Source: Paenibacillus sp. FSL H8-0079 | Lineage (GTDB): Bacteria > Bacillota > Bacilli > Paenibacillales > Paenibacillaceae | DNA length: 64,000 nucleotides | Assembly (NCBI RefSeq): GCF_037991315.1 | Contig: NZ_CP150300.1 | Location: 992,001 to 1,056,000, forward strand | Direction of reading: 5' to 3' | In this document: piece after piece, positions 29,455 through 41,875 of the stretch | How positions within the stretch are numbered: the stretch's first letter is position 1 | Layout of the letters: each line of letters starts with the position of its first letter | Program-made: the position numbers and the translations under genes | Notes under the pieces: generated by a model | What the model was told of the DNA's origin: nothing | Databases searched by the model: none | What the model saw: the letters and a program-made list of their open reading frames with translations, nothing else

Positions 29455-32400
29455 GTGGACGGTGACCATTTGCTACGCGATCTTGTATTAAATTTTACGC
29501 TGATTTTGATCTTTGTTTTCCTGATTCATCATTATCTGAACCAAACAAATGCTACGAGAACATCTTCCATCACGACTCGGATTATTATTGGCATTGCACT
29601 GAGCATGTTGGGTACAGCGTTATATTATTTCTCCATTGTACTAAGTGATGGGACCATGTTGAATTTCCGGGCAAGTGTGTATCTGCTCGCCGCTTATTTT
29701 GGTGGAAGTGGCTCCGCAATCGTTACTTTTGTATTCATGTGGATTTTTCGGATTAATATGGGGCGTAATCCCTTGTTGGAGAACTGGCAGTATGCGTTGA
29801 CAGAGTTGTTATTTGTTGTAGCCATATGTCTGATCTTCAAGTATGTCAGGGGATATATGCAGAAGTGGTTGTCCGGAGCGTTGCTGCTGATTACTGTGTA
29901 TGAGTTAATTGTGGTAAAGACATATTCGCCTTCTTTATCCATTTTGGGGATGATTCTGCTTTTTCAATGTATTTGCTTTTTGGCGATTGTACTATGCCTG
30001 TACTATCTGAACCAAAATCATCGATACAGGCGATTGGTCATTCAAAGGGATCGGGAAATGCTGGAGATGCTTCGTATGCAGCCCGGCTTTACGTTTAAAA
30101 TCCATAAACAGAACGGAAAATTCGAATATCTTTTACTTGAAGGAGAGATGCTCTCCCAGCTGGGCTTGGATATGAGTAGTCTGAAGCAAGATTACACATT
30201 GGGCACGTTGAACATTTTACCTCAGGAGAAGGTAGAGTTTCTGCGAAAGCAGTTTAACCGGGCATGGGAAGGGGAATCTTTTTTTTACGAGATTGAGCAT
30301 GAAGGTTATTATTCACTGGTGAAAGTTCGGCCTTTGCGAGAAGATGGTGTGGTGAAGTATGTCATGGGATATGGACTTGATATTACGGAGCACAGAGCAG
30401 TTAAACGAAGAATTCAAGAGAGTGAAGAGCGATATCGAACACTTGAGCGAGTGTCGGCAGACTGGTTTGTCGGTTTGGATAGCAACAGGTGTATTGTGTC
30501 GGTTAATCAGAAATTTCTGGATGTTCTCGGTCTCGACAGGCATGAAGTGATCGGACATCAGCTTGAAGAATTGTTGTTCATTGAGCAGTCGGAGAACTGG
30601 TTGTTCATTTTCCAAAAAGCCTTACACCACAATATAGTCCAGGAGACGGAACTGAGTTTTATTGTTGGAGAAGGTCATGAGCAGCATGTTCGGGTTCATC
30701 TATATCCGGATAAAGCGCTTAACTCAAGTGAGAAAATTAAGGCAGTTATTCATGATATTTCGGATCAGTATAAACGTGTTAAGGCCGACAAAGCCAGCCA
30801 GGCGAAAAGTGAGTTTCTTGCCTTCATGAGTCACGAGATTCGCACCCCACTGAGCGGCATTATCAGCTTTTCGTTGTTGCTTCAACGGACAGATCTATCC
30901 CCACAGCAATTGGATTATTTAAGTAAAATCAACGCGTCCTCCCAGAACATGCTTACCCTCTTGAATGATATTCTTGATTTTTCGAAAATTGAGGCAGGCA
31001 AGCTGACTTTGGAGAAGGTTTCTTTTTCACCAGAGGATGTATTCAAGCGTATGGCTGATCAGATCGGTGTGGCTATCGGGCACAAAGACATCGAAGTGAT
31101 CTTTACAACCGATTCCGATCTGCCGTTAACGGTGATTGGTGATCCGTTCCGACTTGAACAGGCGTTATTGAATCTGCTGAGTAATGCGATTAAATTTACG
31201 GAGTATGGATATGTAACATTGCGGGCAGAGGTGCTTTCATTAGAAGCGGAGCAAGTTCAGGTCCGTTTTGAGGTAGAGGATACGGGGATTGGCATCTCAC
31301 CTGAACAAATGGAACGGCTTTTTGTCCCGTTTACTCAAGCGGAACCTTCGACGTATCGAACATATGGTGGTTCTGGACTTGGGCTGGTGATCTGTTATCT
31401 TCTGGTGACCTCCTTGGGAGGAAACTTGCGTGTGGATAGTGTGCTGGGAGAGTACAGTCTGTTTTCATTTGACTTGATATTTGAACTTGCAGATACGGAA
31501 GAAGAGAGTTCCTTTCTGCAAACATTCCCTTTGCTCTATTGTGTGAATGATGTGGTTATCATTGAAGAGGATGAACGGATGGGCGAAAGTCTGAAGCAGA
31601 TGCTCTACTCATTCGGAATGAAGCCGACAGTGTATCCTTCCTTGAGCCATATGATAGAGAGCGATTGGTGTGTATCTCATGCAGATGGGGCAAGTTCCCT
31701 GTTAATGATGATGGATATGGATGCAGAGGACACCATCAACGGGTCGTCATGGGACAAATTCATGAAGCGATTGAATCGAACCAAATTTCAAATGGTGGGT
31801 TATACCCATGCCTTTAGTGATAATGCCTTGTGGAGTGAGGAGAGGTCCTTCCGCCCGGATATGATGATGATCAAACCGATTACACGTCTGGGGTTGTTCG
31901 AAGTGTTACTTGCACTTCAGGGTGAAGGGCCACTGGAGAACCATCGGAGGGTAGAAGGCGAAGAACCCTATTTGCTCAAATCCAAAGGGCATATTCTGAT
32001 CGCTGAGGACCAAGAAATCAATCAACTGGTTATTCGAGCGATGCTGGAACATATGGGATTCGAGGTGACGCTGGCAGACAGTGGCACAGAGGTTCTGAAG
32101 AAATTGGGCGAACAAACATGGGAACTGATTCTGATGGATATGTATATGCCCGAAATGAATGGAATGGATGCAACGCGACACATTCGCAAGATGAGGCAAT
32201 ATGATCGTACGCCCATTATCGCGCTAACAGCGAATAGTCTGCAAATAGATCATGAGACTTGCTTTGAGGTTGGCATGAATGCCATCCTGACGAAACCGAT
32301 TCATGAACAACAGATGACAGATACATTGGAAACATGGATTGATGTGAAAGGCATACGAGAGATCAGTGGAATTGATGCAGATAAGGCGATTAGGCAGATG

Positions 32401-32694
32401 GACGGCAAGCCGCATATTCTGCAATATGCGCTCACGAAATTCAGAATAGAATATGGCTCGTTTCAGAAAAAACTTACGATTCAGCTTCAGCAGCAGCAGA
32501 TTGCTGCTGTGATCCGCAACGTTCATTCACTCCGTGGCGTATCTGCCAATCTGCATGCAGTGGACCTGTTACGTCCGGTTCTTCAACTGGAATCGCTCTT
32601 GTCCCGTCCGTTATTCGAAGAAGAGGAATTGAATTTGGTATTGGAGAAGGTACAACAGGAGATTGATATTATTACCGGGTCTCTGCCATGGTGA
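29455..32694 (+). CDS. hybrid sensor histidine kinase (5TM sensor, PAS, HisKA, HATPase, two receiver-like domains, Hpt)
   Basis: 1079 aa. Residues 1-190 hold six to seven hydrophobic stretches resembling the LytS/YhcK 5TM sensor. Two PAS-type domains follow (about 203-315 and 326-440). Next come HisKA with MSHEIRTP (His460) and HATPase_c with [10 protein letters not shown] and [11 protein letters not shown] receiver-like domain at about 695-820 is degenerate (acidic residues kept, ordinary phosphoacceptor context lost). A good receiver with [11 protein letters not shown] (Asp895) and a C-terminal Hpt (VHSLRG, His1024) complete an internal phosphorelay. The output partner is not fused. The start is uncertain: GTG at 29455 has no clear ribosome-binding site. 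It converges with the OmpR-type regulator, 25 bp away. Confidence 0.88.
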
Positions 32695-32719
32695 ACGAGC
32701 TGAATGAAGCTGTGTTGTG

Positions 32720-33394
32720 TTAAGGTGTGAACTTATATCCGACCCCCCAGATGGTTTGAATAAATTGGGGGTTTTTCGGGTTGTCCTCAATTTTTTTGCG
32801 AAGCTTGGTAATGTGTACATCTATGGTGCGATCATTAATGTAGGCATCAATACCACGAATGGCTTCAATTAGGGCATAACGACTGTAGACTTTGCCGGGA
32901 TTGAGGACAAACAGCTTCATGATCTCAAATTCCGAAAACGTCATTTCGACTCGCTGGTTATCCAATAGTACGGTCCTTCGGGCCAGGTCCAGAGATATTC
33001 CGGTTTCCTGTTCAGTAACAATAGGGTTGTTCAATATGGAGTAGCGACGTAATACAGCCTCAATACGTGCCTTCAGTTCCTGCATGCTGAAAGGTTTGCA
33101 TACATAGTCATCAGCCCCATCGGTTAACGATCGAATCCGCTCCGCCACTTCGGTTAACGAAGAGATGACGATGATGGGGATGGCCGTATGTTGGCGCATG
33201 AGAGAACAAGGATTCTTATCTCCGGAATCAGGGAGCATCAAGTCAAGAAGCAGGATATCAGGCCGCGCTTGAAGCTGTAGAAGACCATCTCTTGCGTTAT
33301 CGACACGGATAACATCATACCCTTCACCTTGTAAATACAGGGATAATGTATCACCTAACATGTTGTCGTCCTCTATGATAAGCACTTTGGTCAT
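32720..33394 (-). CDS. OmpR/PhoB-family response regulator
   Basis: The 224-aa protein has an N-terminal receiver (VLIIEDDNMLGDTLSLYL, phosphoacceptor in LLLDLMLPDSGD, conserved Lys in VCKPFS). The C-terminal winged helix is typical (MTFSEFEIMKLFVLNPGKVYSRYALIEAIRG, RTIDVHITKLRKKIEDNPKNPQFIQTIWGVGYKF). The ATG at 33394 has AAAGGA upstream and begins at the receiver; the longer frame from 33415 lacks support. It is convergent with the hybrid kinase, which makes that kinase a candidate partner, though the kinase Hpt could serve another regulator. Confidence 0.9.
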   Translation of the reverse strand: MTKVLIIEDDNMLGDTLSLYLQGEGYDVIRVDNARDGLLQLQARPDILLLDLMLPDSGDKNPCSLMRQHTAIPIIVISSLTEVAERIRSLTDGADDYVCKPFSMQELKARIEAVLRRYSILNNPIVTEQETGISLDLARRTVLLDNQRVEMTFSEFEIMKLFVLNPGKVYSRYALIEAIRGIDAYINDRTIDVHITKLRKKIEDNPKNPQFIQTIWGVGYKFTP

Positions 33395-33455
33395 GATATT
33401 CCTTTCTGAATCCACTTCGTGTAGAAGAACTAAGATCCATGGGTTAGCTTAATAT

Positions 33456-35908: not shown

Positions 35909-37141
35909 TCAGGAAGAGAGGGATGTCGAGTCGGCCATGCCTTTGTTGCCTCGGCTCAGCCAGCTTACACGCCAGCGGGATTGCATGAAGAGAACGAGGA
36001 TTAGGGAAGCTGCTGCAATCAGGCTAAGAATGACAAAGCCTGGCGTATAGGATTGATAGCTGCTATACAGTTGACCGAGAATCAGTGGCAGTGCATATCC
36101 GCCCAATCCGCCTGCGGCACCTACAATACCTGTCATCAGACCAATCTCGTTACCGAAGCGTTGGGGAACCAGTTGGAACACCGAGCCATTTCCGGCGCCC
36201 AGACACATCATGCCGAGGAATAACATGACTACCACAACAGGAAGTGGTGGCATGAAGGATACACCGATCAACATGATACAGGCTCCTGTGTACAGGAAGG
36301 TCAGCATACGGGTTCCACCAATTTTGTCCGCCAGGTATCCCCCAACAGGCCGGAAGAAACTACCTGCGATTACACAGAAGGTGGTAATGTCTGCGGCACG
36401 AACAGGAGAGAGTCCATACTGGGTGTTGAAGAAGATGGTGAGATAGTTACATAATCCAACGAAACCACCAAAGGTTACACAATAGAAGGCACAGAATACC
36501 CAAGCATCTTTTTGTTTAAGCAGACTTCCGTATTGCGACAATTTCTTGGGTTCAGGCCGGTTAGGGCTATTCTTGGCAAAGATAGAAAAGAGAATGAATA
36601 CGATAACGATCGGTATAATAGCAAGTCCGAATACAACTTCCCAGCTGCCAAAATGCGTAGCCAAGCGATTGGCAAACAACGTTGCGAGTACGGTTCCGCT
36701 GTTACCTGCCCCGGCAATACCCATGGCCAGACCCTGATGCTCTTTGCCATACCATTGGCCTGCGAGAGGTAGCGCAGCAGCAAAGGAGGCGCCTGCGACA
36801 CCCAGCAAGAGTGCCACCACGTACAGTTGGCTTAAAGAGTCGACCCATAGCCAGCCGAGTAATAAAGGAACAAGAGTGACGAGCATCCCGATCTGTGCGG
36901 TCAGTTTCGGACCAATATAATCAGACATGAAGCCAAGCACAAGGCGCAGGATGGAGCCGCCGAGAATAGGCAATGCGACCAGATTGGCCTTTTCCAGCGG
37001 TGTCATCGGATAATCCAATGCAATGACAACTGCGAGTGGACCAAGCATCCCCCATATCATAAAACTGATGTCAAAATACATAAACGCCCCGAAGAGGGTG
37101 GGCTTATGCCCGCTTTTCCAAAAACTTTTGCTCTCCATCAT
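35909..37141 (-). CDS. narK: nitrate/nitrite transporter, NarK/NasA type (MFS)
   Basis: The 410-aa protein has about 12 membrane segments and the nitrate-porter glycine signatures: GIAGAGNSGTVLATLF in the fifth-helix region and GAGNGSVFQLVP in the eleventh. It imports nitrate and/or exchanges nitrite. The start is an ATG-ATG pair with GAGGAG upstream. It is divergent from nasB-nasC and led by an antitermination-type leader, so it is the likely uptake step of the assimilatory pathway. Confidence 0.92.
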   Translation of the reverse strand: MMESKSFWKSGHKPTLFGAFMYFDISFMIWGMLGPLAVVIALDYPMTPLEKANLVALPILGGSILRLVLGFMSDYIGPKLTAQIGMLVTLVPLLLGWLWVDSLSQLYVVALLLGVAGASFAAALPLAGQWYGKEHQGLAMGIAGAGNSGTVLATLFANRLATHFGSWEVVFGLAIIPIVIVFILFSIFAKNSPNRPEPKKLSQYGSLLKQKDAWVFCAFYCVTFGGFVGLCNYLTIFFNTQYGLSPVRAADITTFCVIAGSFFRPVGGYLADKIGGTRMLTFLYTGACIMLIGVSFMPPLPVVVVMLFLGMMCLGAGNGSVFQLVPQRFGNEIGLMTGIVGAAGGLGGYALPLILGQLYSSYQSYTPGFVILSLIAAASLILVLFMQSRWRVSWLSRGNKGMADSTSLSS

Positions 37142-37201
37142 CCATCATCGCTCCTCATCCAATTGAGATCTTCGTAATTTGTCTATGTGCTTGTGGAGGC
37201 A

Positions 37202-37310
37202 GAAAAAGGCCGCAATTCGTCCAGATAAGAACGATTTGCGGCCCCGTTGCCGACAGGCGGTACACGTCATTGTGTTCCCGCATCTGAGTTGATCACAGCA
37301 CTGTGATTTT
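37202..37310 (-). promoter_or_regulatory. narK leader: ANTAR-type two-hairpin antiterminator element and terminator
   Basis: Minus strand, in order. Hairpin P1 at 37281-37257 has stem ACAC/GTGT closing hexaloop AATGAC. Hairpin P2 at 37252-37239 has stem CGGC/GCCG closing hexaloop AACGGG. A strong terminator follows at 37243-37202 (GGCCGCAAATCG pairing with CGAATTGCGGCC, then TTTTT). Both hexaloops have A at position 1 and G at position 4, the ANTAR-protein recognition rule. The P2 3' arm overlaps the terminator 5' arm, so the two are mutually exclusive. A separate dyad ATCACAG-TG-CTGTGAT lies at the RNA 5' end (37292-37307). Confidence 0.8.
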
Positions 37311-37317
37311 GATTCAA

Positions 37318-37347
37318 ATTATAATCAAGTGAAAATAGATATGTCAA
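37318..37347 (-). promoter_or_regulatory. sigma-A promoter of narK
   Basis: On the minus strand TTGACA (37347-37342) and TATAAT (37323-37318) are separated by 18 bp. Transcription would start near 37311, giving a leader of about 170 nt that contains the antiterminator element. Confidence 0.75.
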
Positions 37348-37415
37348 CAAAATTTACACGTAATTTTAAATAATTCATTTTTTAATCGCATTTCATATTT
37401 ATGATGTTAATTTAG

Positions 37416-37444
37416 TTGACATATGATTGAGATTCCCTTAATCT
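37416..37444 (+). promoter_or_regulatory. sigma-A promoter of nasB-nasC
   Basis: TTGACA (37416-37421) and TAATCT (37439-37444) are separated by 17 bp. Transcription would begin near 37451, just ahead of the first ANTAR hairpin. Confidence 0.72.
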
Positions 37445-37450
37445 GAATCT

Positions 37451-37530
37451 AATATGAATCCACACAATGGCGTGTGGATTCCGGAGGCAACGGTGCCCTT
37501 TTCCGAATCATGGAGAAGGGATTTTTCTGT
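37451..37530 (+). promoter_or_regulatory. nasB leader: ANTAR-type two-hairpin antiterminator element and terminator
   Basis: P1 at 37456-37481 has a perfect 10-bp stem GAATCCACAC/GTGTGGATTC around hexaloop AATGGC. P2 at 37486-37497 has GGC/GCC around hexaloop AACGGT, with outer CGG/CCG support. The terminator at 37496-37528 has CCCTTTTCC pairing with GGAGAAGGG, then ATTTTT. Loops again have A1 and G4. P2 and the terminator share the CCC arm. This matches the ANTAR mechanism, in which the protein stabilises P2 and lets polymerase pass. The element repeats the design, not the sequence, of the narK leader across the divergent region. Confidence 0.85.
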
Positions 37531-37567
37531 TTATTTTCAGGTGAGAGAGATAGATAGGGGGCAGCCC

Positions 37568-39721
37568 ATGAGCAGAAGCAAACTGGTGATTATCGGGAAT
37601 GGCATGGCTGGAGTGAAGTGTGTCGAAGAGATTATCGCACTGGAGCCTGATACGTATGAGATTGTAATTTACGGCAATGAACCCCGTCCCAACTACAATC
37701 GGATCATGTTATCGAAAGTATTGCAGGGTGAGCATTCGTTACAGGATATCATTATCAATGATTGGACCTGGTATGCGAAGCATCATATACGGCTATGTAC
37801 AGGTGAAACGGTACACCGGATTGATACCCGTGGAAAATATATAGAGACTGAATCGGGACTAAAAGAAACATATGATGTTCTGATTCTGGCAACAGGGTCA
37901 TCACCGTTTATCCCACCGATTCCGGGAATTGATAAAGAGCGAGTCATGTCCTTCCGAACCATTGATGATTGTACGCGCATGTCTGACTATTCCAAAGAAT
38001 ATCGGAAGGCCGCAGTCATTGGTGGCGGATTGCTGGGACTGGAGGCGGCACGGGGGTTGCTGCATCTGGGTATGGAAGCTGTGGTGGTCCATAATGCACC
38101 TTACATTATGAACCGACAGTTGGATCAGAAAGCGGCCTCAATGCTTCAACAGGAGCTTGAAGATCAGGGCATGTCCTTCCTGTTGGCCAAAAATACGCAG
38201 AAAATTACCGGACGATCGCAGGCCCAGGGACTGCTGTTCACAGATGGTTCCAAGCTTGAAGCTCAGGTTGTCATTGTCGCTGTAGGGATTCGGCCGAATG
38301 TGGATCTGGCCAGACGAAGCGGGATCGCCACCAATCGGGCAATTATGGTAGATGACTATATGCGCACCAGTGTACCGGATATTTACGCAGTTGGGGAATG
38401 TGCCGAACATCGGGGAATCAGTTATGGTCTGGTGGCCCCCTTATACGAGCAGGGGAAAGTACTCGCACGTACGCTCTGTGGACAGGAAACGCCTGAATAC
38501 AAAGGATCAATTCCATACTCACAGCTGAAGGTATCGGGGGTTGATGTTTTCTCGGCCGGCGAGATCAGCGGGGAAGGCATGCAGACTGCAATTCAACATT
38601 TGGATGGCATTCAAGGCACATATAAAAAGGTGCTGATGCAGGCTGGCAAAGTGCGCGGAGCCATTTTATTTGGAGATATAGCCGAGGGAACGGCATTGCT
38701 TGGATTGGTGCAACGAGGTGCCGATGTGGCAGAATTGGCTCCGCGTGAAGGGTCCCCGGACCCGGCTGAGATGGCTGCTGCGGCATTACCGGCTCAAGAG
38801 ACCGTATGTGCCTGCAACAATGTGACCAAGGCTACGATAATGAAGGCCATTCAGGAACAGGGTCTCGAAACGGCAGATCAGGTGAAGGAGCAGACCAAGG
38901 CGTCAGGTTCATGCGGTGGCTGTCGCCCGATGGTGGCTGCTCTGTTGAAACATACGCATAACCTGAAAAAAAGCGGGGGTACTGGAGTGGTAGCCACACC
39001 GGATAAACCTGCTCCAATGCCTGTATGCAGTTGTACGGAGCTGGGGCATGCAGAACTGAAGGAAATGCTGAATAACAGTGTTGGCCCCCGTAAAGTTCAT
39101 GTGGATAGACACGATTATCAACCTGTAATATCTCTCAAGAGAGACCTACCTTTGATCCTGCAGAAGCTAGGTTGGGGTTCGGAGCTTGGCTGCACGGTAT
39201 GTCGCCCAGTGATCCACTATTATTTGCAGGTATCCACTCGAACGATACATGATCAAGAGATTGAGAGTGCCCAAGAGATTCAGGTGCGCTGGGATAATCA
39301 GATCCCGCTTTCATCTTATGCGAGGGATGCGGGTGGCTTGGCAACACAGCTTCGTACGTATTGGATCGGCGCAGTGATGCCGTCACCCGTGAGTATAGGC
39401 GTCGCACCAGGGCCCGGGTCATTGGTGAGCGCACTGGTGCAGGATATTGGTTTGCTGGCTTCACCGGCTGGATGGGAGATTTACGCAGGCGGTCATGCTG
39501 AGCATCCGGTCAAGCAAGGTGGCTTGCTCGGGGTGGCTGAAACAGAGGTGCAGGCGGCGACACTCGCATCAGCGTGCCTCCAATGGTATCGCCAAACCGC
39601 CTGGTATGATGAGCCGTTATGGGCATGGACGGAGCGATTGGGATTCATGTCGATTCGAGAAACGCTGCTGGATGACCAGTTGCAGAGGGAACTTGCAGCT
39701 ACACTTCATGCTGATATATAG
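37568..39721 (+). CDS. nasB: assimilatory nitrate reductase electron-transfer subunit NasB
   Basis: The 717-aa flavoprotein starts MSRSKLVIIGNGMAGVKCVEEI. It has FAD- and NAD-binding Rossmann motifs (KAAVIGGGLLGLEAARGLL, ILATGSSPF). Two BFD-like [2Fe-2S] modules follow: CACNNVTKATIM with SGSCGGCRP, and CSCTELGHAEL with GCTVCRP. This architecture is that of B. subtilis NasB, which passes NADH electrons to NasC. The frame is open to 37454, but that part is the leader RNA; GGGGGC precedes the ATG at 37568. It is followed 21 bp later by nasC. Confidence 0.88.
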   Translation: MSRSKLVIIGNGMAGVKCVEEIIALEPDTYEIVIYGNEPRPNYNRIMLSKVLQGEHSLQDIIINDWTWYAKHHIRLCTGETVHRIDTRGKYIETESGLKETYDVLILATGSSPFIPPIPGIDKERVMSFRTIDDCTRMSDYSKEYRKAAVIGGGLLGLEAARGLLHLGMEAVVVHNAPYIMNRQLDQKAASMLQQELEDQGMSFLLAKNTQKITGRSQAQGLLFTDGSKLEAQVVIVAVGIRPNVDLARRSGIATNRAIMVDDYMRTSVPDIYAVGECAEHRGISYGLVAPLYEQGKVLARTLCGQETPEYKGSIPYSQLKVSGVDVFSAGEISGEGMQTAIQHLDGIQGTYKKVLMQAGKVRGAILFGDIAEGTALLGLVQRGADVAELAPREGSPDPAEMAAAALPAQETVCACNNVTKATIMKAIQEQGLETADQVKEQTKASGSCGGCRPMVAALLKHTHNLKKSGGTGVVATPDKPAPMPVCSCTELGHAELKEMLNNSVGPRKVHVDRHDYQPVISLKRDLPLILQKLGWGSELGCTVCRPVIHYYLQVSTRTIHDQEIESAQEIQVRWDNQIPLSSYARDAGGLATQLRTYWIGAVMPSPVSIGVAPGPGSLVSALVQDIGLLASPAGWEIYAGGHAEHPVKQGGLLGVAETEVQAATLASACLQWYRQTAWYDEPLWAWTERLGFMSIRETLLDDQLQRELAATLHADI

Positions 39722-39742
39722 ATGAAAGGCGGGGATGGGAAG

Positions 39743-41875
39743 ATGGGATTATCCGTGAGTTCAGAACCAACAGCCTCTAAGCTCTATGTAAAGGAAACCC
39801 AGTGTCCGTATTGCAGTGTGCAATGCAAGATGACGGTTGAAGAACTGGCCGCACCTGTTGCAGGCCAGCGTCGTGGTGAGTATACGGTTCAGGGCGTTCC
39901 GAATGAAGCCTCGCAGGGCAGGCTCTGTGTTAAAGGCATGAATGCTCATCAGCATGCACTCAGTGGACAACGATTAATGCATCCACTAATTCGTCGTAAT
40001 GGCGAGCTTGAACCCTGTTCATGGGGCGAAGCCATTCAGAATATCGCTGAGCGGTTTCGACAATTGAAAGATTCATACGGAGCAGATACGGTCGGAGTAT
40101 ACGGAGGTGGATCTTTGACCAATGAGACAGCCTACCTGCTTGGCAAATTTGCCAGGGTTGCATTGGGGACAAAGTATATCGACTATAATGGACGGTTCTG
40201 CATGTCAGCTGCGGCTTCAGCTGGCAGTAAAGTGTTTGGGATGGACCGTGGATTGACGTTCCGCCTATCCGATATTCCCAAGGCGGGCTGCATTGTACTC
40301 GCAGGAACCAATATTGCTGAATGCCAACCTACCCTGTTACCCTACTTCAATCAGGCCAAGGAGAATGGGGCATTCATTATCGTTATTGATCCCCGCAAGA
40401 CGGCAACCGCAACCATTGCCGATCTCCACTTGCAGGTGAAGCCCGGCATGGATGCTCTGCTGGCGGATACCATGTTGAAGGCGATTATGGATGCCGGATT
40501 GGTGGACCCTCATTTTATAGGTGAACGAACGCATGGGTACGAACAATTGATGCAAGAGTTAGCTGATCTGCAGCTCGAACAGGCGGCACAAGCATGTGGG
40601 GTGGATCTGGCCCTGATTCGTCAGGCGGCGATAGCCTATGGTGAGGCAGAGACAGGTATGATCATGACAGCGCGTGGTGTGGAGCAGCAGACAGATGGGC
40701 ATATGGCCGTCAGGCATTTTCTGAACCTTGTGCTGGCGACTGGCAAAATTGGCAGAGAAGGCTGCGGATATGGTGCCATCACAGGACAAGGGAATGGGCA
40801 AGGTGGACGGGAGCATGGGCAAAAGGCTGACCAGCTGCCGGGCTATCGCTCCATTGAAAATGAAGCTGATCGTGCCTATGTGGCATCCGTTTGGGGCGTG
40901 GACCCTGCAAGTTTACCGGGTAAAGGGGTCTCGGCCTATGAGATGATGGAGAAGGTTCATGATCAGGAGATTCGGGCGTTGCTCGTAATGGGCTCCAACC
41001 CGGTCGTATCCAATCCCAATGTGCGTTTGGTGGAAGAAGGTCTGCGCAAGCTGGACTTTCTGATCGTGGCAGATATGTTTCTGTCTGAGACAGCGCGCAT
41101 GGCTGATCTGGTTCTGCCAGTTACATCTTATATGGAGAATGAAGGCACACTCACCAATCTGGAGGGGCGTGTTCTACTCCGTGAACAGGGGCGACCTGCG
41201 CCGGGAGAGACGCTCGATGATTGGGATATATTATGCCGAATTGCTGCAAAAGTGGGCAAAGCCGCTTACTTTCAATATGACACTGCTGAGGATATCTTTA
41301 ATGAGCTTCGGGTGGCGAGTCGTGGCGGAGTCGCTGATTACTATGGTATTACCTATGAGCGTTTGCGTACCGAGAAAGGGGTATACTGGCCGTGTTCTGC
41401 CCCGGAGGATCAGGGAGAAGGTTTGCTGTTCGGTGAACGATTCGCTCACCCGGATGGTAAAGCGGCATTCACATTCGAATCAAGCACAGGCTGGAATGAT
41501 GTAACTCCGGAATTCCCCTTGATTCTGACTAATGGCCGTGTGCTTCCTCATTATCTTACAGGGGTGCAGACACATCGTAGTCCGGCACTGGCAGCCCGTG
41601 AATTGGAGAACTTCGTTGAACTTCATCCGGCTACCGCTGCCCGTCATCGCATTCACGATGGAGAATGGGTCGAGATTCAATCGGTGTACGGAAGCTTCAC
41701 GGTACGTTCGCGCATCAAAGACTCCATTCGGGAGGATACTTTGTTCGTACCGATGCACTGGGGTGGCGTTCAAAATGTGAACCGGGCAACTCGACCGGAG
41801 CTGGACCCGTTCTGCCGAATGCCTGGGTTCAAGACAGCGGCCGTAACCATTCGACCGTTGCGATTGGCGAGATGA
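39743..41875 (+). CDS. nasC: assimilatory nitrate reductase catalytic subunit NasC
   Basis: The 710-aa molybdopterin oxidoreductase has an N-terminal [4Fe-4S] site (CPYCSVQC, Cys21/24/28, plus Cys62 in GRLCVKG). Bis-MGD binding motifs follow (NGRFCMSAAASAGSKVFGMDRG, GTNIAECQPTLLPYF, MGSNPVVSNPN, and the C-terminal LPHYLTGVQTHRSPAL). It reduces nitrate to nitrite in the cytoplasm. Its length matches B. subtilis NasC. The start at 39743 follows GGCGGGGATGGG; the ATG at 39722, immediately after the nasB stop, has no such site. No nitrite reductase gene follows, so nitrite must be reduced by enzymes encoded elsewhere. Confidence 0.93.
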   Translation: MGLSVSSEPTASKLYVKETQCPYCSVQCKMTVEELAAPVAGQRRGEYTVQGVPNEASQGRLCVKGMNAHQHALSGQRLMHPLIRRNGELEPCSWGEAIQNIAERFRQLKDSYGADTVGVYGGGSLTNETAYLLGKFARVALGTKYIDYNGRFCMSAAASAGSKVFGMDRGLTFRLSDIPKAGCIVLAGTNIAECQPTLLPYFNQAKENGAFIIVIDPRKTATATIADLHLQVKPGMDALLADTMLKAIMDAGLVDPHFIGERTHGYEQLMQELADLQLEQAAQACGVDLALIRQAAIAYGEAETGMIMTARGVEQQTDGHMAVRHFLNLVLATGKIGREGCGYGAITGQGNGQGGREHGQKADQLPGYRSIENEADRAYVASVWGVDPASLPGKGVSAYEMMEKVHDQEIRALLVMGSNPVVSNPNVRLVEEGLRKLDFLIVADMFLSETARMADLVLPVTSYMENEGTLTNLEGRVLLREQGRPAPGETLDDWDILCRIAAKVGKAAYFQYDTAEDIFNELRVASRGGVADYYGITYERLRTEKGVYWPCSAPEDQGEGLLFGERFAHPDGKAAFTFESSTGWNDVTPEFPLILTNGRVLPHYLTGVQTHRSPALAARELENFVELHPATAARHRIHDGEWVEIQSVYGSFTVRSRIKDSIREDTLFVPMHWGGVQNVNRATRPELDPFCRMPGFKTAAVTIRPLRLAR

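Follow-up and report, generated by a model that had tools for sequence, protein, structure and literature searches.

The narK/nasB region and its leader RNAs

The window analysed here, that is, the whole 64-kb stretch of DNA from Paenibacillus sp. FSL H8-0079, contains a divergent nitrate-assimilation locus in which narK, encoding a nitrate/nitrite transporter, is transcribed away from nasB and nasC, encoding a NirB-like electron-transfer subunit and the catalytic subunit of an assimilatory nitrate reductase (Table 1). In this divergent region, the 5' end of each transcript consists of two hairpins with six-base loops (hexaloops), P1 and P2, and the second overlaps an intrinsic terminator. An earlier interpretation made from the letters alone (the sequence-only reading) had proposed that both leaders are controlled by an antiterminator protein of the ANTAR type. 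Our results support this reading in its essentials; a third leader in front of nirB and the GlnR-type boxes on the promoters are additions to it.

The four hexaloops were found exactly as described in that reading, and all six hexaloops of this genome (narK, nasB and nirB leaders) have A as the first loop base and G as the fourth, as the rule demands. The proposed sharing of bases between P2 and the terminator amounts to two bases in the nasB leader and to the whole 3' arm of P2 in the narK leader, where it lies inside the 5' arm of the terminator. The linker between P1 and P2 is 4 nucleotides in the nasB leader, with P1 counted as 10 base pairs, and 9 in the narK and nirB leaders; the range published for the eut leaders of Enterococcus faecalis is 5–12 (PMC3369931). 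To estimate how often such structures occur by chance, a rule was set that required hexaloops of the A..G type, stems no shorter than 4 and 3 base pairs, a linker of 3–14 bases and a terminator overlapping P2. In the window it returned four rows at three places, namely the two leaders and one site at 40634 inside the nasC coding region, which was judged spurious. The same rule gave one match in total on 60 dinucleotide shuffles of the window. Both leaders also fold more stably than shuffled sequences (z −4.98 and −4.53).

By sequence and by fold, P2 and the intrinsic terminator are mutually exclusive in these leaders. RNA folding preferred the terminator over P1 plus P2 in both of them, and imposing P1 plus P2 cost 3.7 kcal/mol in the nasB leader, 11.0 in the narK leader and 8.4 in the nirB leader, as would be expected if read-through needs a protein that holds P2. 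An Rfam search of positions 36000–39000 gave no relevant match, even at an expect (E) value of 10. Upstream of P1, where the narK transcript is predicted to begin, there is an additional palindrome, ATCACAGTGCTGTGAT, whose stem is kept in many relatives while its loop is not. It was considered as a third ANTAR site but is probably none, since the loop rule is broken in loci L044, L050 and L059, and it is regarded here as a 5' hairpin or an operator.

Table 1 Features of the narK/nasB region, given as window positions, and the TrpD2-like gene of the same genome (loop bases in square brackets)
Feature	Position	Strand	Sequence or basis
narK (nasA), NarK-family nitrate/nitrite transporter of the major facilitator superfamily	35909-37141	-	TIGR00886, E 8e-84, 281.8 bits, under the curated cut-off of 311.7
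nasB, NirB-like electron-transfer subunit	37568-39721	+	TIGR02374, E 3e-194, profile positions 1-544 of 794
nasC, assimilatory nitrate reductase catalytic subunit	39722-41875	+	NF047855, 1115.9 bits against a cut-off of 1100
narK leader terminator	37203-37243	-	arms 37243-37229 and 37222-37208, T run 37207-37203; sequence, fold
narK leader P2 hairpin	37239-37252	-	CGGC[AACGGG]GCCG; sequence, relatives
narK leader P1 hairpin core	37262-37275	-	ACAC[AATGAC]GTGT; outer stem in fold
Extra 5' hairpin or palindrome upstream of narK P1	37292-37307	-	ATCACAGTGCTGTGAT
narK predicted promoter	37318-37347	-	TTGACA-18-TATAAT, 12 of 12 consensus positions
GlnR/TnrA-type box overlapping narK -35	37342-37358		TGTCAACAAAATTTACA
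GlnR/TnrA-type box overlapping nasB -35	37405-37421		TGTTAATTTAGTTGACA
nasB predicted promoter	37416-37444	+	TTGACA-17-TAATCT; start site expected a few bases 5' of P1
nasB leader P1 hairpin	37456-37481	+	GAATCCACAC[AATGGC]GTGTGGATTC; sequence, fold, relatives
nasB leader P2 hairpin	37486-37497	+	GGC[AACGGT]GCC; sequence, relatives
nasB leader terminator	37496-37526	+	CCCTTTTCC-GAATCAT-GGAGAAGGG to 37520, then ATTTTT
TrpD2-like protein gene, own genome	L002 8470-9564	-	ANTAR-nas-linked family, diverged TrpD motifs

Conservation of the leaders in relatives

Loci of relatives were collected by NasB homology, which gave 28; one of them (L060, Marinomonas, 26% over a short stretch) was excluded, and the remaining 27 are all labelled Paenibacillus or Fontibacillus. 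The nasB leader is present in 24 of these 27 loci and the narK leader in all 23 that have a divergent narK directly upstream, with hexaloops and overlap kept, the outcome that the sequence-only reading required of related species. Neither leader was found in L054, L057 and L058, and none of these three has a directly upstream divergent narK (in L057 narK lies about 2 kb further upstream, and L058 has only a weak same-direction narK match); the sequence of L053 stops 198 bases before nasB. A pair of −35 and −10 elements stands 5' of P1 in 24 of 24 nasB leaders and 23 of 23 narK leaders (TTGACA..TATAAT), so P1 should, judging from the consensus, lie within the transcript.

Since the search pattern demanded A1, G4 and the closing pairs, their invariance follows from the pattern itself. 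Loop position 2, though left free by the pattern, is A in both loops of all 34 distinct cores, and the second P1 pair, likewise not demanded, is invariant in all 34. The three outer P1 pairs covary: the 34-leader set has 23 doubly changed cells where shuffles give 10.6, and a broader set of 40 leaders has 30 where shuffles give 8.7. Covariation is uninformative for the three inner P2 pairs because they never vary among the relatives. In the narK terminator, 98% of cells are paired across 21 sequences and three pairs are changed on both sides, a result reached by 1 of 500 shuffles; the corresponding proportion of paired cells in the nasB terminator is 90.5%. The covariation that the sequence-only reading had seen within the single locus was a fair but thin argument, and the relatives supply a stronger one.

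The leaders might instead be ordinary attenuators, working through a leader peptide or as passive terminators, with GlnR alone regulating the genes. GlnR-type boxes do overlap the promoters, GlnR is reported to act directly on the P. polymyxa counterparts (PMC9948412), and an in-frame upstream ATG at 37454 carries the nasB frame across the leader. However, the P1–P2 lengths of relatives differ by 1–2 bases, which shows that the leader is not maintained as coding sequence and rules out a coding N-terminal extension of NasB. Neither the conserved dual hexaloops nor their link to an ANTAR gene is predicted by a passive attenuator, and we regard this explanation as extremely unlikely.

The ANTAR regulator and its predicted regulon

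The trans-acting ANTAR regulator that had been predicted to lie outside the window was found: a search of the genome gave a single ANTAR match (67.1 bits against a cut-off of 27.3), in a protein of 197 residues at about 6.394 Mb. Its gene is followed downstream by a TrpD-like gene and adjoins a divergent nirB-nirC-sumT operon, encoding the large subunit of siroheme nitrite reductase, a formate/nitrite transporter and a tetrapyrrole methylase. The nirB leader is canonical as well, with AGTTAC[AACGGC]GTAGCT, nine bases, GGC[AATGAA]GCC and an overlapping terminator. A different P2 assignment, with a loop lacking G4, was dropped after comparison with relatives had given GGC[AATGAA]GCC, and a search of this region (L002) with the narK/nasB P1 sequence yielded only a chance-level match.

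A covariance model built from 40 leaders, with the three leaders of this genome in its training set, was used to score 150 of 1976 first-look candidates in the genome. Three sites fell below E 1e-4 (6e-7, 4e-6 and 1.5e-5), which are the narK, nasB and nirB leaders. A fourth match at G000:C1:4577917 (E 0.05 and 0.07) was rejected for a mismatch in P1 and the lack of a T run in the next ~100 bases; as 150 of the 1976 candidates were scored, there may be an additional weak fourth leader. With only three accepted model sites, the predicted regulon as seen is narK, nasBC and nirB-nirC-sumT.

The C-terminal ANTAR domain (PF03861) was found in all 51 proteins collected from relatives. Among the 11 RNA-contact positions mapped from EutV, eight are invariant in 51 of 51 proteins and R178 is kept in 50; the position of Lys147 is Met in 49, and that of Asn173 is Asn in 45 and Asp in the protein of our genome. 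In a Pfam search of the latter, ANTAR was the sole domain above its cut-off, and no NIT domain was found. The N-terminal part is modelled as a receiver fold; a fold comparison by VIA-align placed AmiR among the top matches, and the predicted fold of the regulator is EutV/AmiR-like rather than NasR-like. The receiver-fold domain bears a signature of Trp81, Trp82, Cys83, Cys95, Trp116 and His119, all invariant in 51 of 51. The regulator belongs to the ANTAR antiterminator class by its C-terminal ANTAR domain and its modelled N-terminal receiver fold, and it lacks a conserved phospho-acceptor.

Co-occurrence of leaders and ANTAR genes

Among 119 relatives, a model built from 34 leaders matched 59 genomes and an ANTAR gene was present in 77, with both in 57. 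A wider survey applied the 40-leader model, at a threshold of E 0.1, to 296 genomes of the order, our own among them: 189 genomes had both, 3 a leader only, 28 an ANTAR gene only and 76 neither (Fisher p 1e-42, with no correction for ancestry). Leader and ANTAR gene go together across the order. As a control for presence of the pathway, a comparison was made among genomes from other genera whose NasC-type reductase scored about 650 bits or more (some under the family cut-off). Leaders were detected at E 0.1 in 16 of 20 genomes with an ANTAR gene and in 0 of 8 without one, and at E 0.3 in 17 of 20 against 2 of 8 (G103 and G113; one-sided p 0.005). When the six training genomes were left out, the E 0.1 counts became 10 of 14 and 0 of 8 (p 0.0015).

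Several observations weigh against the assignment of the leaders to the ANTAR protein. The Fisher p values ignore shared ancestry, and some of the 14 held-out genomes belong to genera present in the training set. No leader was detected in the 28 of 296 genomes that have an ANTAR gene only, and a weak leader match (E 0.066) occurs in G194, which lacks an ANTAR gene. Two genomes, G027 and G065, the only such cases among the 119 relatives, keep both leaders without an ANTAR gene. In addition, covariation in the nasB terminator is weak, as 36 of 500 shuffles match its score and a slide by one column scores higher. A direct search for ANTAR homologues in G027 and G065 found none, the sole match in G027 having an E value of 0.55. 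In G065 (L161) a deletion that starts inside the TrpD2-like gene takes out the ANTAR gene and reaches into nirB, which has left the nasB and narK leaders orphaned; in G027 no close orthologue of nirB is present, with 57% identity for the best match.

Some other leader-like sites were observed in the survey. In several other genera, narK or nas genes are preceded by tandem leader matches about 88–126 bases apart, forming attenuators in series (L133/L071 in G117, L135/L152 in G106, L077 in G072 and L068 in G111), and the second match is weak in some of them. At L153 1510 (+) (G111:C1:1062856) there is a dual-hairpin leader with terminator (E 2.6e-4) that has no nas proteins nearby and whose next long open reading frame resembles an ABC transporter ATPase. 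At L146 1510 (+) (G078:C9:67579) a leader-like site (E 0.0022) lies directly 5' of a nirC-type formate/nitrite transporter gene, and its second loop begins with G, not A.

Comparison with known systems and the input to the regulator

Among the closest known systems is that of Klebsiella, where the nasF leader is likewise a dual-hexaloop leader with a terminator before nitrate-assimilation genes (PMC3369931). Among PDB sequences, Klebsiella NasR (4akk) also gives the best match to the regulator's ANTAR domain. NasR, however, senses nitrate through a fused NIT domain, whereas the Paenibacillus protein has none and carries an N-terminal receiver fold in the model. A receiver-ANTAR regulator acting on a nas leader is reported for NasS-NasT of Paracoccus, Azotobacter and others (PMC3795266), and some sources label the regulators of relatives 'response regulator NasT'. 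The likeness to NasT extends to the general build and the nas leader target only; the usual neighbour here is TrpD2-like, and the receiver-fold domain has the invariant WWC/Cys95/His119 signature. By eye, no NasS was recognised beside the ANTAR gene, and a PF13379 search of the genome for NasS candidates gave six matches of 25–79 bits, with no NasS control for calibration.

In the ethanolamine pathway of Enterococcus, EutW phosphorylates EutV (PMC3369931), and the receiver fold would allow the Paenibacillus protein to be a conventional response regulator phosphorylated in the same way by a nitrate-responsive kinase. A histidine-kinase-like frame lies ~7.7 kb from the ANTAR gene (L002 17834-19000), and the acceptor position, as assigned together with the beta-5 Lys position from predicted strands, is Asp in 12 of 51 proteins. 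That position is not conserved, however, being His in 28, Asn in 5, Gln in 4 and Ala in 2; none of the 51 has Lys at the beta-5 Lys position, Pfam receiver models matched 0 of 51 at E 0.01, and inspection by eye found no kinase-like frame adjacent to the ANTAR gene. Phosphorylation is thus a very unlikely input.

Another candidate for the input is the TrpD2-like protein, which could take the place of NasS as a nitrate/nitrite sensor and hold the regulator in the way that Pseudomonas AmiC holds AmiR. In a neighbourhood sample of 21 ANTAR regions (20 picked for diversity, plus our own), a tblastn match to the regulator was present in 17, with nirB or narK alongside in 15 of the 17, and in 12 of these 15 nas-linked loci the TrpD2-like gene is the next one downstream of the ANTAR gene. 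The TrpD motifs are named GTGGD and KHGN; here they are replaced by GPYDGR and LHG..(7)..PPK.G, of which GPYDGR and PPK.G are unchanged in all 12 aligned proteins. The partner-controlled AmiR, a top fold match of the regulator, also speaks for this proposal, although no partner seen here is AmiC-like. Against it, nas-type TrpD2 (at least 47% identity) occurs in 9 of the 16 genomes searched; it is absent from six that have both ANTAR gene and leaders (G038, G078, G086, G090, G005 and G063), as well as from G027, which has no ANTAR gene. Its absence from these six means that it cannot fill this role in every genome and is not obligatory for sensing; a sensing role of the proposed kind is unlikely. 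We tentatively consider, as a possible if rather doubtful idea, that the acceptor-less receiver-fold domain might itself sense nitrogen oxyanions (or a related redox or nitric oxide signal) and be tuned in many species by the TrpD2-like protein without phosphoribosyltransferase motifs. If this is true, nitrate-responsive ANTAR proteins would have a third type of input in addition to the NIT domain and NasS.

Proposed mechanism and promoter control

Computation supports the leaders, their mutually exclusive folds, a single cognate protein with kept RNA-contact residues, and co-distribution of the two. The leaders of narK, nasBC and nirB are very probably ANTAR-target antiterminators under the single ANTAR protein detected in the genome, likely induced by nitrate or nitrite. 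By default, RNA polymerase would halt at the leader terminator. Once the regulator has become active, an ANTAR dimer would capture the emerging P1 hexaloop and then that of P2, a successive binding that has been proposed for EutV (PMC8934654). The captured P2 would be unavailable to the terminator, and transcription would read through into narK, nasBC or nirB-nirC-sumT. The target genes point to nitrate or nitrite as the most likely inducer, and the regulator would then be nitrate-responsive. Because the receiver-fold domain has no conserved phospho-acceptor, the regulator is probably controlled by a ligand or a partner, as AmiR is, rather than by phosphorylation.

Initiation would be gated separately by the GlnR-type boxes, whose consensus we take to be TGTNA-N7-TNACA. 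Boxes of this type overlap the −35 element in 22 of 24 nasB leaders (not in L048 and L059) and 22 of 23 narK leaders (not in L055), and one is also found 5' of nirB in our genome. In P. polymyxa WLY78, nasA, nasD1 and nasD2EF are reported GlnR targets, with nasA and nasD1 divergent, and the listed sites have the same form (PMC9948412). By inferred equivalence these are apparently the same three transcription units, and the main text of that paper does not contain 'antitermin-', 'leader' or 'NasT'. The probable logic is that GlnR restricts initiation by nitrogen status and the ANTAR protein gates elongation by substrate. Apart from these elements, window positions 29455–33415, a few kb from narK, contain a large frame that resembles a sensor kinase (+) and a response regulator of the OmpR type (−).

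Significance

In the literature searched, no paper contained both 'ANTAR domain' and 'Paenibacillus', and Paenibacillus is not mentioned in the main text of the 2012 ANTAR survey (PMC3369931), whose supplementary tables may list such leaders. The ANTAR antitermination regulon described here is new in host and in regulator build, not in kind. Each leader gains a candidate cognate protein and is hence directly testable, and the question is raised of how the inducer is perceived by an ANTAR protein that lacks both a NIT domain and a conserved phospho-acceptor and for which no NasS was identified. The Paenibacillales are largely soil- and plant-associated bacteria, and the proposed mechanism would place nitrate assimilation across much of this order under a second, RNA-level control.
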